Shown: one piece after another, positions 45,568 to 52,736 of the stretch
Numbering within the stretch: position 1 is the first letter of the stretch
Layout: every line of letters begins with the position of its first letter
DNA from: Halopseudomonas litoralis
Lineage (GTDB): Bacteria > Pseudomonadota > Gammaproteobacteria > Pseudomonadales > Pseudomonadaceae
Direction of reading: 5' to 3'
Assembly: GCF_900105005.1 (NCBI RefSeq)
Contig: NZ_LT629748.1
Span: 1,736,001 to 1,800,000 of the forward strand
Length of the DNA stretch: 64,000 bases
Made by a program: the position numbers and the translations under genes
Notes under the pieces: model-generated
What the model was told of the DNA's origin: nothing
What the model saw: only the letters and a program-made list of their open reading frames with translations
Databases searched by the model: none

Positions 45568-45846
45568 TCAGCGCGTCGACCGGGCGCGCATGCATTCGTA
45601 ACCACGGCGGGTCAGTAGCAACAGATGCCGGGTACTGGCATAGATCTGTCCCGAGGCCTTGAGGCTGTCGATCAGCTCTGGAAATTCATCGGCTGGTAGA
45701 TAGAAATAATCCACCCCCTCGCTCAGCTCAGCCTCACACGCCTTGAACCAGCGAAAGCTGGTGCCCTTGGATAGCCCATTCAGCTCGTCAAGTTGGCGCA
45801 GGCTCAATGTATCGGAGCCTGCGAAATGAATCGGATCGGGGGTCAT
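45568..45846 (-). CDS. Small ORF6N-like DNA-binding-type protein (hypothetical)
   Basis: This 92-residue protein reads LSLRQLDELNGLSKGTSFRWFKACEAELSEGVDYFYL, a helix-turn-helix-like start. It is followed by ELIDSLKASGQIYASTRHLLLLTRRGYECM. The pattern is reminiscent of the ORF6N/antirepressor N-terminal domain, in which a basic helix and the TRRGY end recur. I know it only as a conserved hypothetical of Pseudomonas. Linked to the AEC carrier, it may regulate it. The resemblance is weak, and no catalytic residues are visible. Confidence 0.6.
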   Translation of the reverse strand: MTPDPIHFAGSDTLSLRQLDELNGLSKGTSFRWFKACEAELSEGVDYFYLPADEFPELIDSLKASGQIYASTRHLLLLTRRGYECMRARSTR

Positions 45847-46046
45847 GCAGGATTTCCGTGAGCCAGATGCCAGAACAGGCCGGCAACCATAGCAGAATTA
45901 CACCCGTTCAGGGGAGCCGGAAGCCCTCGGACTCCGCGCCAGCTGTACCTGAGGTTGCCGCCGTCGCTCCGTTCGACCTGCTATCTTGGTTGGCAGGATG
46001 CGGCACCTGCCGTATTACATTGCCTAATGCTGGGAGGCCTATCCTG

Positions 46047-46766
46047 TTGAGTTCCACTCTCTCGCGCATCATCAAATGGCTGTTGTTTCTGGCGGTCGTC
46101 GCCGGCGCGGTGTTGACTCGACCCTGGGAGTATATTCCACCTGAGTGGCATCCCCTAGAGCCTCTCGCCATCGAGCACCCCATGACGCTGGTAACCAAAT
46201 GGAAACTGGGGCGAATCAAGGATGATCCTCAGCAGTGTCTGGCCGTGCTGGAGGCGGCGCCGGAGGGAGCGATCGATTATCTGGCGCTGGAAGATTATAC
46301 GCCCGTTGCCGGCTGCCCATTGACCAATGTCGTGCGAGTCAGTAATACCGGCGTGCGCTTCAGTTCCACGTTCACCATAACCTGCCCACTGGCGGTGGCC
46401 TGGGTGATGTTCGAGCGCCAGCAACTGCAGCCGCTGGCGCAACAGCATCTCGGCAGCGCCTTGATACAGGTAGATCACTTCGGCAGTTTTGCCTGCCGCA
46501 ATATCTACCATCGTGAAGGCGCGCGCCGCAGTCAGCATGCCACCGCAGGTGCCTTCGATGTCGCAGCTTTTCGCTTCGAGAACGGCCAACAGGTTTCGGT
46601 TCTGAGCCATTGGGCTGATGACGAGGCGCCAGCCAAGTCGGCCTTTCTCAAGGAAACCCATGATGCAGCCTGCGGCTACTTCGGTACCGTGCTCGGCCCG
46701 GACTACAACCAGCCACACGAAAACCATTTCCACTTCGATACCAGTGGTTTCGGCTTCTGTCGCTGA
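46047..46766 (+). CDS. Extensin-family protein (extensin-like C-terminal domain)
   Basis: This 239-residue protein has an N-terminal membrane anchor (about residues 9-25). The domain has CLAVLEAAP, YTPVAGCPLTNVVRV, ITCPLAVAWVMFERQQL and CRNIYHREGARRSQHATAGAFDVAAF, with a zinc-peptidase-like end PHENHFHFD. The His/Asp arrangement resembles LAS-type peptidases (D-Ala-D-Ala carboxypeptidases), suggesting cell-wall hydrolysis. The frame opens at 45807, but a TTG at 46047 with GGGAGG nine bases upstream and directly preceding the anchor is the likely start; the upstream stretch lacks family features. Confidence 0.83.
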   Translation: MSSTLSRIIKWLLFLAVVAGAVLTRPWEYIPPEWHPLEPLAIEHPMTLVTKWKLGRIKDDPQQCLAVLEAAPEGAIDYLALEDYTPVAGCPLTNVVRVSNTGVRFSSTFTITCPLAVAWVMFERQQLQPLAQQHLGSALIQVDHFGSFACRNIYHREGARRSQHATAGAFDVAAFRFENGQQVSVLSHWADDEAPAKSAFLKETHDAACGYFGTVLGPDYNQPHENHFHFDTSGFGFCR

Positions 46767-46866: not shown

Positions 46867-49362
46867 ATGAGCGCGTCAATCACTGGCGACCCCGCCGCAA
46901 CAGCGATCAGCCTGCCTATCGAAGGCATGAGCTGCGCCTCCTGCGTCGGTCGCGTGGAAGCCGCCCTTGGCAAGGTCGAGGGCGTCGGTGCGGTCGCGGT
47001 CAATCTTGCCACGGAACGGGCGAATATCCGCCTTACCCGCCAGGTTGACCGCACTGCACTGGTGCAGGCAGTCGAGAAGGCCGGCTATAGTGTGCCTGCC
47101 AGCACTATCGAGCTGACTATCGAAGGCATGACGTGCGCTTCCTGCGTCGCGCGGGTCGAGCGCGCACTCAAGGCCGTGCCGGGCGTCTTGGAAGCGAGGG
47201 TCAACCTGGCCACGGAGCGTGTCACGGTGCATGGCAGCGCCGCCGCCGATACACTGGTCGCCGCCATTAAAAACGCCGGCTATTCGGCGCAGGTCATCGA
47301 CGCACTGGACGGTGATGTCAGCGAAGAAGCTACTGCGAAAAAGGACGCAGAACGCGCCACACTCAAGCGCGATCTCATCACTGCTGCCATGCTGGCATTG
47401 CCGGTGTTCGTTATTGAGATGGGCTCGCATATGGTGCCGGGGGTGCACGAGCTGATCATGCGTACCATCGGCCTGCAGTGGAGCTGGTATCTGCAGTTCA
47501 TCCTGACCACCCTGGTGCTGGCCGGGCCCGGCCGGCGTTTCTACCGCACCGGTTTCCCGGCGCTGCTGCGTCTCGCGCCTGACATGAACTCATTGGTCGC
47601 GCTGGGCACCATGGCCGCCTATGCCTATTCGGTGATTGCGACATTTGCCGCCGACCTGCTGCCTGCCGGTACAGTCAACGTCTACTACGAAGCCGCAGCA
47701 GTCATTGTGGCGCTGATTCTACTCGGGCGGTTTCTCGAAGCCCGCGCCAAGGGGCGCACCTCCGAGGCCATCCAGCGGCTCGTCGGCCTGCAGGCCAGAA
47801 CCGCACGGGTACGACGCGACGGCAGCACGCTGGATATAGCCGTCGGCGAAGTCGCCCCGGGTGATGTGGTCGAAGTGCGACCCGGCGAGCGTGTACCGGT
47901 CGATGGCGAGGTCGTCGAAGGGCAGAGCTATGTTGATGAATCGATGATCACCGGCGAACCCGTACCCGTCAGCAAGTCGGCTGGCAACCCGGTGGTGGGC
48001 GGCACCGTCAACCAGACCGGCGCCTTTGCTCTGCGGGCCACCGCCGTCGGCGGCCAGACCGTGCTGGCACAGATCATTCGCCTGGTCGAGCAGGCTCAGG
48101 GCTCCAAGCTGCCGATTCAGGGGCTGGTAGACAAGGTGACCATGTGGTTCGTACCCGCGGTCATGCTGGCTGCGGCACTGACCTTCGTCATCTGGCTGAT
48201 TGTCGGCCCCTCCCCTGCGTTAACCTTCGCTCTGGTCAATGCTGTGGCCGTGCTGATCATTGCCTGTCCTTGCGCCATGGGCCTGGCCACGCCCACCTCG
48301 ATCATGGTCGGCACCGGTCGCGGCGCGGAGTTGGGGGTGCTGTTTCGCAAGGGAGAAGCTCTGCAGCTGTTAAAAGATGCCAAGATCGTGGCCGTGGACA
48401 AGACCGGCACCTTGACCGAAGGCCGCCCCGCCCTGACCGACCTGGAAACCTCGGCCGGCTTTGAGCGCGCCCAGGTACTGGCACGGATCGCAGCCGTCGA
48501 AAGCCGCTCGGAGCACCCGATCGCCCGTGCGCTGGTGGATGCTGCCGAACAAGAAGGCCTGAGCCTGCCAACGTTGAGCAACTTCAAATCGGTCACGGGC
48601 TTCGGTGTGCGTGCCGATGTCGACGGCGCACGGGTGGAGATCGGTGCCGATCGTTACATGCGTGAACTGGGATTGAGCGTGGAGGTCTTTGCACAGACTG
48701 CGGAGCGTCTCGGTGACGAGGGTAAATCCCCCTTGTATGCCGCCATCGACGGACGCCTCGCCGCCATCGCGGCGGTCGCCGATCCGATCAAGGCAAGCAC
48801 CCCCGGCGCCATTGCCGCGTTGCACGATCTGGGGCTGCAAGTTGCCATGATCACCGGCGATAACGAACGCACCGCCCAGGCCATTGCCCGCCAGCTGGGT
48901 ATCGACGAGGTGGTGGCCGAAGTGTTGCCCGAGGGTAAGGTTGATGCTGTGCGCCGCCTGAAGGCCGAGCATGGCTGCCTGGCGTTTGTTGGCGACGGCA
49001 TCAATGACGCGCCGGCTTTGGCTGAGGCCGATGTTGGGCTCGCGATAGGAACGGGTACCGATGTAGCGATGGAAGCAGCGGATGTGGTGTTGATGTCCGG
49101 CAACCTGAACGGTGTACCCAACGCCATAGCCCTGTCCAAGGCCACTATCGGCAACATCCGGCAGAATCTCTTCTGGGCCTTCGCCTACAACACAGCCTTG
49201 ATTCCGGTTGCTGCCGGGGTGCTGTATCCGGTCTATGGCCTGCTGCTGTCACCGATCTTCGCCGCTGGAGCTATGGCGCTGTCGAGTGTCTTCGTACTCG
49301 GCAATGCGCTGCGACTGCGACGTTTCCAGGCGCCGATTGCTGCGGCCGAAACCGCAGCCTGA
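46867..49362 (+). CDS. copA: Copper-translocating P1B-type ATPase
   Basis: This 831-residue pump has two N-terminal heavy-metal-associated domains (GMSCASC with Cys23/Cys26 and GMTCASC with Cys90/Cys93) and eight helices. The ion-binding motif is CPC in [11 protein letters not shown] (about residue 467), with actuator motif TGEPVPV, phosphorylation site DKTGT (Asp511) and the nucleotide-binding motifs SEHPIARA and [10 protein letters not shown]. It exports Cu(I) from the cytoplasm. CAGGAGG precedes the ATG. No CueR-type regulator or copper chaperone gene is adjacent. Confidence 0.96.
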
Positions 49363-49428
49363 TCAGCAAGCAGATAACAGCAAGGCCGACCTGACATTGC
49401 AGATCGGCCACCTGCTCAGGTCATTCCA

Positions 49429-50337
49429 TCAGTACGGGCAATTGCCACGGTATTCGGAGATATTGCGGTCGGATTCATGATTCGGACCGCACAGGAACTG
49501 GCTATAGCGCGTATCGTTATCCAGGAAACGCTTCATCCAGGATACGCCCATACGGCTGAGTACATCATTGTTGAACCCGCCGCCATTGGCGCAGTAGTGC
49601 GAGCCGCCGTCAATCTCGACATAAGCCTTGTCGATGTCATTCGGCAGCTGGTTATAGAACGGCGAAGCATGACTGCGCACCGGCGCGATAAGGTCGGATT
49701 CGCAAGCGAAGATCAGCGTCGGAGCCTGTACTCCACTGGCGCGCGCGGTATCCCATGGCGCCAGCGGAATGGCTGCCTTGATACGGCCCTGGCTGGCTAC
49801 GCGCAATGTGCCGCCACCGCCCATGGACCAGCCGATCACGCCCAGCCGATCGGTATCGATCATGCCATTCACCGGACTGAGGCGACTGGAGTTCTGGTCA
49901 ACCAGATAATCCAAAGCATTATTGATCTGACGGGCACGGCTCCGCGGCTGGTCAAAACCCGTATTGGTATCGATGGTCATCACCACGAAGCCGTGAGACG
50001 CCAGTTTCGGCCCCCACCAGTCGATGGAAGACTCGGCAGATACAAAACCCGGAATCACCACAATGGCAGCCATGGTTCCGGAGGTGCCTGTAGGATAATG
50101 AATGGTGCCGCCCCCGAAGCCGCTGGTCAAACTCGACACGTTGCTGGTGCGCACGCTGTGAGGCCCACTAGAGGCTTCAAGGAAGGAAACCGTCGGGTCC
50201 GGACCTCGTTCGTAAGCTCCACCTGGATCGCTCGGGTCGTCGACCGGTGGGTTGGTTGCAAATGCAGAAGTGGACAGCATAAGGGCGCCTGCTGCCAGCA
50301 TGGAGAGCAGCGAGCTGGGTAAGTTCTTATTGATCAT
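49429..50337 (-). CDS. Secreted polyester/PET hydrolase-like cutinase (alpha/beta hydrolase)
   Basis: This 302-residue protein has a signal peptide (cleavage AFA before TN, about residue 27) and the cutinase/polyesterase fold. The nucleophile elbow is GWSMG with Ser171. Asp215 ([10 protein letters not shown]) and His247 (GGSHYC) complete the triad. Phe98 (PGFVS) and Met172 form the oxyanion hole. Cysteine pairs at 212/249 and 283/300 match the two disulfides of type II PET hydrolases. From memory it is very close to PE-H of Halopseudomonas aestusnigri (Ser171, Asp217, His249, Tyr250). The spacing from Asp to His is identical and Tyr248 corresponds to Tyr250. The Asp and His are shifted by two residues, so the loop after WDT is shorter here. 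Natural substrates are probably cutin-like or triglyceride esters. Confidence 0.93.
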
Positions 50338-50736
50338 TATTACTCCAGGAAAGACTTATTCAGGATTATTGTTAATTACATATAACGCGTGAAGTTGATG
50401 TCCCGGATGAGAACTGCCATCAACAGCGATGAAGTATTTGATCTGTCTCAGAGAGCGTCAACGGCCCACAAGCAAGTTCACCCACATGGGTTAAGCGAAC
50501 AATGTTCTTTGTTATAAGCCTGGTGATCTTGAACTAATACCCGATATAAGGTGACAATATGCCATTATTGAAAACCACTCTTTCGAGTGAGTGGCCAAAG
50601 CATGGCCGTAACATATCAATCGACCATCAGAGGCTCCGCATTTACGTGCCTTCATGCAGGTCAATTCCTAACCGACGATTGACGATGAACCGGTGACAGC
50701 AGATCATCTCTGCCTGATTGATCGAGGATGAGATAG
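50338..50736. other. Divergent intergenic region between the polyester hydrolase and mscS genes
   Basis: About 400 bases must contain the promoters of both divergent genes. CTGGAGT before the hydrolase ATG is its ribosome-binding site, and AT-rich patches on that side (TTATAT, TAATTA) could hold a -10. I see no protein-like frame, no RNA gene and no clear operator. Confidence 0.4.
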
Positions 50737-52229: not shown

Positions 52230-52736
52230 TCAGTGCTCGATCGGCTCGAAGCTCTCATCACCGAAATAGGTCGCGTAGTTGTTCAAGGCACCAACGACCT
52301 TGACTGCACCACTGGTGCGGGAATCTTCGGTGGCGCCTTCCATGGCACTGGCGCCGGCCATCAGCTGAGTAATCAGGATATGCAACTGAGCATCAGCCTC
52401 CCCTTCCAGCCCGCAGTTCTCGATCATGTAAGCCACCTGGCCATTGATTGTTGCAGCCAGACTATCGAAAGCACTGTCAGCGAAATTGCCGGTATGGATA
52501 TCATCCAGTGACGCGCGCACCCTGCCGCGCAGCTTGCCCATGGCCTCACGTAACGGCTCATCGGTACCCCAAGGCTGACCGTCATTCAGATAAAGCACAT
52601 GACCTTCGTTCGCATGAACTGCGTGACTGTCGTGATCATGCACATCATTGGTGCTGGTCGCCGCAACCAGAGGCGTGCTGAGGGTCAAGGCGCCCAACGC
52701 CAGGGCGAAATAGACACCGGAAGACTTGATACTCAT
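52230..52736 (-). CDS. Histidine-rich exported DnrO-like protein
   Basis: This 168-residue protein has a signal peptide (ending VAA, about residue 26). A His/Asp-rich stretch HDHDSHAVHANEGH (about 33-46) follows, then a helical domain (WGTDEPLREAMGKLRGRV, AFDSLAATINGQVAYMIENCGLEGEADAQLHILITQLMAGASAMEGA). The helical part resembles the DnrO-like family found in Pseudomonas; the histidines suggest binding of Cu, Ni or Zn in the periplasm. It is convergent with the CopD-like gene and 2.9 kb from copA. A metal role is inference. Confidence 0.65.
   Translation of the reverse strand: MSIKSSGVYFALALGALTLSTPLVAATSTNDVHDHDSHAVHANEGHVLYLNDGQPWGTDEPLREAMGKLRGRVRASLDDIHTGNFADSAFDSLAATINGQVAYMIENCGLEGEADAQLHILITQLMAGASAMEGATEDSRTSGAVKVVGALNNYATYFGDESFEPIEH

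Follow-up and report, generated by a model that had tools for sequence, protein, structure and literature searches.

The window analysed here is a stretch of 64,000 nucleotides from Halopseudomonas litoralis (C1:1736001-1800000), whose genome is a single contig of 3,987,842 bases. An open reading frame on its minus strand, at 49429..50337, encodes a 302-residue alpha/beta hydrolase that the reading frame, profile, alignment and structural matches indicate to be a type IIa PET hydrolase-like secreted polyesterase. Residues 1-27 (50257..50337, minus strand) look like a signal peptide by eye from the translation; the preliminary description of this DNA had also read a signal peptide.

On the far side of the stop codon lies a heavy-metal P-type ATPase gene (46867-49362), placed between the PETase gene and a gene at 45807-46766. 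The ATPase and PETase genes are convergent, and the space between them holds a terminator-like hairpin (49384..49409, minus strand); three such sites occur in the region against 1.4 expected, a weak excess. At loci L003-L007, L037 and L048, the DNA match to the gene at 45807-46766 starts 56-90 bp after the PETase match, and this adjacency implies that the ATPase gene was either inserted here or lost there. An MS-channel gene stands beside the PETase gene in six fetched loci, and CopD-like and FUSC genes are found in part of them. A conserved operon of the PETase gene with its neighbours was considered and rejected, since the MS-channel, CopD-like and FUSC genes are divergent from it and functionally unrelated. 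Further along the window, a 168-residue frame (52230-52736) appears by eye to begin with a signal peptide and has no match in Pfam.

Results

The encoded protein is a PET hydrolase close to two enzymes of solved structure

The active-site residues proposed in the preliminary description were all found in the translation at the numbers it had assigned to them. The nucleophile, Ser171, lies in GWSMGGGG (codon 49825..49827, minus strand), of which GWSMG occupies residues 169-173; the catalytic Asp215 (codon 49693..49695, minus strand) and His247 (codon 49597..49599, minus strand) correspond to D217 and H249 of PE-H; and Phe98 and Met172 are also in place. The protein contains four cysteines in total (212, 249, 283 and 300). 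In PE-H, according to the accessible text of PMC7031157, the triad is S171/D217/H249 and the disulfides are C214-C251 and C285-C302, and the pairs 212/249 and 283/300 match these by alignment. The same numbering bears out the earlier observation that Asp and His fall two residues before their PE-H counterparts.

The Pfam PETase profile PF12740 scored 413 bits, its cut-off being 28, and a homologue search with the protein returned 3636 relatives at E <= 1e-30, which together exclude chance as the source of the PETase identity. The NCBIfam equivalog for the BHET hydrolase BdeA, NF051441, scored 329.4 bits, below its cut-off of 520, so that by NCBI's own rule the name of BHET hydrolase is not given. 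The tannase/MHETase-type profile PF07519 had no match in this genome, nor in any of the control genomes, and two full-length GspD-type secretins are encoded in this genome. The elements of the M5 motif, taken as elements with the spacing rule aside, are all present, namely GGGG, PGF for [PG]G[YF], Met after Ser, and DxDxR(Y)xxFxC; these are given as discriminating for functional PETases in the part of PMC12224614 available to us.

The predicted structure had a mean pLDDT of 86.6, with values below 50 for residues 1-39, and its best structural matches were 8AIT (0.7 A over 262), 8AIS and PE-H. The first two, PbauzCut of Halopseudomonas bauzanensis (8AIT) and PsCut of Pseudomonas saudimassiliensis (8AIS), are identical letter for letter over residues 1-302 to the proteins encoded at L004 and L003, respectively. 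Both have 302 residues and align with the query gap-free over 302/302 positions, with mature identities of 92% for PsCut and 91% for PbauzCut (20 and 24 substitutions over 263 mature positions), and both share with it the triad, the two cysteine pairs and the lengths of the two loops considered below. Nearest relatives among non-polyester lipases would speak against a polyesterase; the closest solved relatives are PsCut and PbauzCut, which the accessible table of PMC10495362 labels PETase, and the earlier claim was not refuted on this point. In a tree of 61 of 86 open frames (every one of the loci up to L050, together with six picked from L051-L071), the query falls inside a starred clade of nine rows with PsCut as the nearest row and PbauzCut as a further member, while PE-H falls in another clade; no row of this tree can be named as type IIb. 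From sequence comparison, the query is an orthologue of PsCut and PbauzCut and an ordinary new member of the known type IIa family.

The type assignment agrees with the type II arrangement, and the kinship to PE-H, that had been recognised earlier. As judged from the sequence, the cysteine pairs 212/249 and 283/300, one of them beside the catalytic His, would form the two disulfides typical of type II. PE-H (6SBN, from Halopseudomonas aestusnigri) resembles the query in fold, triad and disulfide pattern, with 81% identity over the mature part (214/263). The top PDB matches include PE-H, PbauzCut, Ple628 and Ple629, all ranked above IsPETase, which places the query with type IIa rather than type IIb; in the accessible portions of the literature, PE-H and PbauzCut are classed as type IIa (PMC12442448), as are Ple628 and Ple629 in print. 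Ple628 and Ple629 (7VMD and 7VPA), MG8 (9VZR) and PET44 (8OTU) come from other genera or metagenomes and have the PETase fold in common with the query at 66-75% identity over the model; the published descriptions of Ple628 and Ple629, so far as they were available, give them two disulfides, as in the query, and give Ple629 a longer extended loop than the query has.

Residues following the catalytic His set the query apart from IsPETase

The extended loop that follows the catalytic His, GGGFNN (residues 252-257; 49567..49584, minus strand), has the length of that in PE-H, as the alignment and the loop table show, and differs from it in residues (GGSIYN in PE-H). The stretch that holds it counts 12 residues in the query and in PE-H, compared with nine in three actinobacterial type I rows, which again places the query in type II. 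IsPETase has Ser where the query has Tyr after the catalytic His. This type IIb enzyme shares the overall fold with the query at about 52% identity. By the accessible texts, it also has GWSMG (PMC12442448) and the second disulfide, and its extended loop differs from that of the query (PMC7031157).

PE-H residues 254-259, after the catalytic His, are the type II-defining loop and were mutated in the work described in the available text of PMC7031157. There, neither single nor whole-loop exchanges increased activity on PET film or BHET, although product from bottle PET was detectable with S256N; Y250S, beside the catalytic His, did raise activity. The query (Tyr248) keeps the wild-type Tyr that it has in common with PE-H at the Y250 place.

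The short loop after PWDT is a common variant of the family

The two-residue shift of Asp and His had been attributed to a shorter loop after PWDT, and this was upheld by the alignment with PE-H (6SBN), in which a two-residue gap after PWDT leaves both residues numbered two lower. The loop, TARASGVQA (residues 197-205; 49723..49749, minus strand), is two residues shorter than that of PE-H by the alignment and the loop table. The further suggestion that this length distinguishes the enzyme found no support, since 18 of 61 rows of the loop table, among them PsCut, PbauzCut and the query, have the same one. Counted between Asp196 and Pro206, the loop has nine residues in those 18 rows, 11 in 40 rows, and 10 in the remaining three, which are actinobacterial type I sequences; among 120 listed of the 3636 homologues, it has nine residues in 48 (query included) and 11 in 65, with seven unmatched by the pattern. 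On a tree built with the loop columns excluded, its length changed at least eight times. At the H. sabulinigri HyVt-376 locus (L025), all three type IIa copies have the nine-residue loop; the accessible literature traces the PET-active HaloPETase5 and 6 to this genome.

A functionally distinct polyesterase, in which this shorter and non-aromatic loop after Trp195 alters substrate choice relative to PE-H, has some local evidence on its side. The loop comes directly after Trp195 and Asp196, positions mutated in IsPETase engineering, and it contains no F, W, Y or H (so in 9 of 61 rows, query included), whereas PsCut (TTRFSGVQA) and PbauzCut (TTRFRGVQA) each carry a Phe in it, so that a local difference from these two remains. 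Set against this are the many rows with a nine-residue loop, the solved PsCut and PbauzCut among them, and the repeated changes of loop length on the tree; moreover, the five loops that the accessible text of the PE-H paper lists as differing between types do not include the stretch after PWDT (PMC7031157). We therefore rejected novelty based on the loop, for its length is common, has changed often and is gap-free against PsCut and PbauzCut, and we regard altered substrate choice through this loop as distinctly improbable. As far as sequence comparison goes, the short loop is a common family variant and not a new property.

Type IIa genes and a second type of PETase are general in the genus

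All 37 Halopseudomonas genomes (the present one included) encode a relative of the enzyme, and 36 of the 37 have a type IIa copy (E <= 1e-100); the exception, G035, has distant PETase relatives only. In places the type IIa genes stand in tandem, two or three per locus, for example at L025, L017 and L018. A distribution this general makes plastic an unlikely reason for the gene, and a natural ester polymer more likely as the everyday substrate. It also bears on the reading of the protein as a general secreted lipase, esterase or cutinase whose PET activity is incidental only: type IIa copies are spread more widely in the genus than selection by PET exposure would be expected to produce, and the depositors of 8AIS and 8AIT named them 'Lipase 1' and 'Cutinase', respectively. 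The top solved-structure matches, besides that one 'Lipase 1', are by name mostly PET or polyester hydrolases and cutinases, which weighs against it. We consider this reading somewhat more probable than not, and it is compatible with membership of the family, since a natural function and PET activity may both hold.

The H. litoralis genome carries a second PETase-family gene, 31% identical to the query (G000:C1:2039884-2040666; L002:1474-2337). Its best solved relatives, 9W68, 9K0H, 9HL5 (HaloPETase1) and 2FX5 (PmC), are of type III; it is this paralogue, and not the query, that strongly matches 9HL5 and 2FX5, and the query shares with HaloPETase1 and PmC the PETase superfamily. In the accessible text of PMC12442448, HaloPETase1 lacks an aromatic clamp and its disulfides are different ones, which sets it apart from the query. 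Distant PETase relatives of this kind occur in 35 of the 37 genomes, being absent from G024 (75% complete) and G031; we call them type III-like, a label for which only the distant gene of the present genome was compared with type III structures.

A palindrome recurs upstream of both types of PETase gene

Upstream of the type IIa gene in the window are promoter-like boxes, TTGACG-17-AATACT (50433..50461, minus strand), and above these, 157 bp before the start codon, is an 18-bp palindromic candidate operator that reads TTAACCC-ATGT-GGGTGAA on the minus strand (50477..50494). An alignment of 223 bp of upstream DNA from the window and seven relatives showed TTGAC and AATACT to be invariant in 8/8 sequences, with the palindrome TTAACCCATGTGGGTGAA above them. 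The pattern AC[CT]C-N3-5-GGGTG[AG] was present at -90 to -200 in 15 of 46 loci (L026 was left out and L035 has no upstream DNA) compared with 9 of 3830 control pieces of equal length, and none of the 15 positive loci bears the name of a different genus, for instance Marinobacter, in its title. At 12 or more of 14 matches, TTCACCC-N4/5-GGGTGAA was found in 14 of 19 chosen upstream regions (the window, the 15 positives and three more) and in 5 of 1622 control pieces, each 400 bp long. The match at L011 is at -375, in several regions another and weaker site lies 78-97 bp above the first, and PE-H's own gene has weak sites only, the best scoring 11. A hairpin-like inverted repeat with a CACTC-N4-GAGTG core is also present in the window at 50575-50590, about 97 bp above the palindrome; it scores below 10/14, and similar degenerate second sites lie at that distance in L003, L004 and L006.

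Upstream scoring was then applied, the present genome apart, to 40 type IIa genes out of the 52 places found at E <= 1e-100 and to 40 distant genes out of 65 places. Sites of at least 11/14 were found before 28 of the 40 type IIa genes, compared with 0.65 expected from shuffles that keep dinucleotides and leave the kinship of the genes uncorrected. These 40 include the seven relatives in which the palindrome was first seen; with those removed, the count is 21 of 33. The distant genes, which are about 30% identical and had no part in defining the palindrome, reached the same score in 23 of 40 cases against 0.85 expected, again with kinship uncorrected by the shuffles. Fourteen of these 23 sites terminate with AGGCGA[AG] and are found 121-161 bp upstream of the first aligned base. 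In H. litoralis, the site before the distant PETase gene is TTCACCCTTATAGGCGAG (L002 1363-1380, 111 bp before the start codon), and the palindrome common to both PETase genes of this genome (window 50477-50494 and L002 1363-1380) can be written in the wider form TTCACCC-N4-RGGYGAR.

Whole-genome searches placed most sites before PETase genes. The exact pattern TTNACCCNNNNGGGTGAA was present in 12 of the 37 genomes, at 15 distinct places in all, and its reversed control nowhere; 11 of the 15 precede a PETase gene by 136-182 bp (ten type IIa, one distant). The wider pattern TYMACCCNNNNRGGYGAR occurs at exactly two places in the H. litoralis genome, one before each PETase gene, the reversed control giving one. 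Of 15 hand-chosen genomes of the 37, 13 contain it, at 46 distinct places in total compared with 7 for the reversed control. Of the 46 places, 31 precede a PETase gene by 121-262 bp, an interval into which about 0.03% of places would fall by chance. The pattern was absent from G005 and G014, both of which have PETases. The sites were already known when this pattern was composed, which accounts for part of its sensitivity but not for its scarcity elsewhere in the genomes.

The other 15 of the 46 places lie away from PETase genes. The search for further regulon members came to nothing; of ten non-PETase loci read, at least five have the site inside a long frame, and by eye, these frames are a class III alcohol dehydrogenase (twice), lpxA and an adenosylhomocysteinase-like protein (twice). 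Separately, the palindrome is found close to where an acyl-CoA synthetase frame begins (Pfam; L243 near 1501), beyond an EamA transporter gene (Pfam) on its 3' side in two genomes (L237 and L240 near 1501), and before a pilV-like gene named by eye (L124 near 1318); each may be a further target or a chance occurrence.

The palindrome might instead be non-regulatory, conserved by descent or for another reason. Many of the genes scored are related, and the shuffles are blind to kinship; 12 of the 40 type IIa and 17 of the 40 distant genes score below 11/14; the TYMACCCNNNNRGGYGAR pattern was written after the sites were seen; and two of the 15 genomes have PETases and no TYMACCCNNNNRGGYGAR place, while its reversed control has seven. 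These points are outweighed by the 23 type III-like genes, none used in defining the palindrome, and by the placing of 31 of the 46 TYMACCCNNNNRGGYGAR sites before PETase genes, and we judge a non-regulatory palindrome to be unlikely.

A genus-restricted TetR-family gene accompanies the distant PETase

Beside the type III-like PETase gene of H. litoralis, on the same strand, is a TetR-family gene (L002:2569-3192; G000:C1:2040952-2041572) whose product has the PF18598 C-terminal domain and a single PDB match, the TetR regulator 4ZA6. Relatives at 72% identity or more were found in 35 of 37 genus genomes and were missing from the same two that have no distant PETase. In all 35 genomes that carry it, the gene lies 233-3392 bp downstream of a distant PETase gene on the same strand, and among 248 sampled genomes of the family no relative at E <= 1e-25 was found in any of the 211 from outside the genus. 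The distant PETase and TetR genes are separated by a short-chain dehydrogenase gene at L253:1042-1803 and L255:330-1133 (Pfam) and at L254:324-1145 (by eye). In G008, the interval holds a similar short-chain dehydrogenase frame and an opposite-strand frame of 699 residues, 666 of which have no Pfam match.

Linkage, site size and symmetry prompt the guess that this TetR-family protein binds the palindrome. Against it, the palindrome is absent before the TetR gene of H. litoralis, in the stretch after the PETase gene. In addition, its centre, worked out by hand from the promoter guess, would lie near -60 if transcription starts near 50426, the position of an activator rather than of a classical TetR repressor, which also counts against TetR as the binder. 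The protein that binds could be another altogether.

Discussion

Taken together, these data lead us to read the gene, at a probability of about 0.9, as one for a secreted type IIa PET hydrolase, a polyesterase orthologous to PsCut and PbauzCut that would work by the serine-hydrolase mechanism and carries a common loop variant, its transcription being probably under control of the palindrome. The enzyme would be exported by means of its signal peptide, possibly with a type II secretion system completing the passage. Outside the cell, Ser171, activated by His247 and Asp215, would attack, at the polymer surface, an ester carbonyl in a polyester chain seated in an open groove, the backbone amides of Phe98 and Met172 would hold the oxyanion, and an acyl-enzyme would form. 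Water would then release the acyl-enzyme, with MHET-like products expected from PET by analogy with PE-H and IsPETase. The everyday substrate is more likely to be a natural polyester or a lipid-like ester than PET, and transcription is probably controlled from the conserved palindrome upstream of the -35 box.

The wider proposal is of a Halopseudomonas polyesterase regulon, for which we hold the odds to be even. Here a single regulator, perhaps the TetR-family protein confined to the genus, would bind TTCACCC-N4-RGGYGAR before both the type IIa and the type III-like PETase genes, and would switch them together on one signal, probably a breakdown product of polyester. The accessible text of PMC12442448 and PMC7031157 yielded no passage on regulation, promoters or operons, and we found no report of PETase regulation in Halopseudomonas in the accessible open-licence literature.

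As an enzyme, the protein is one more natural PETase, very close to those already solved, and the loop that had been singled out in it is one that varies often across the family. The regulatory part matters more, in that it bears on why these bacteria keep PETases and what induces them. If the operator is shared by the two types of gene and the regulator is linked to them, the natural inducer, and hence the natural substrate, would become testable.
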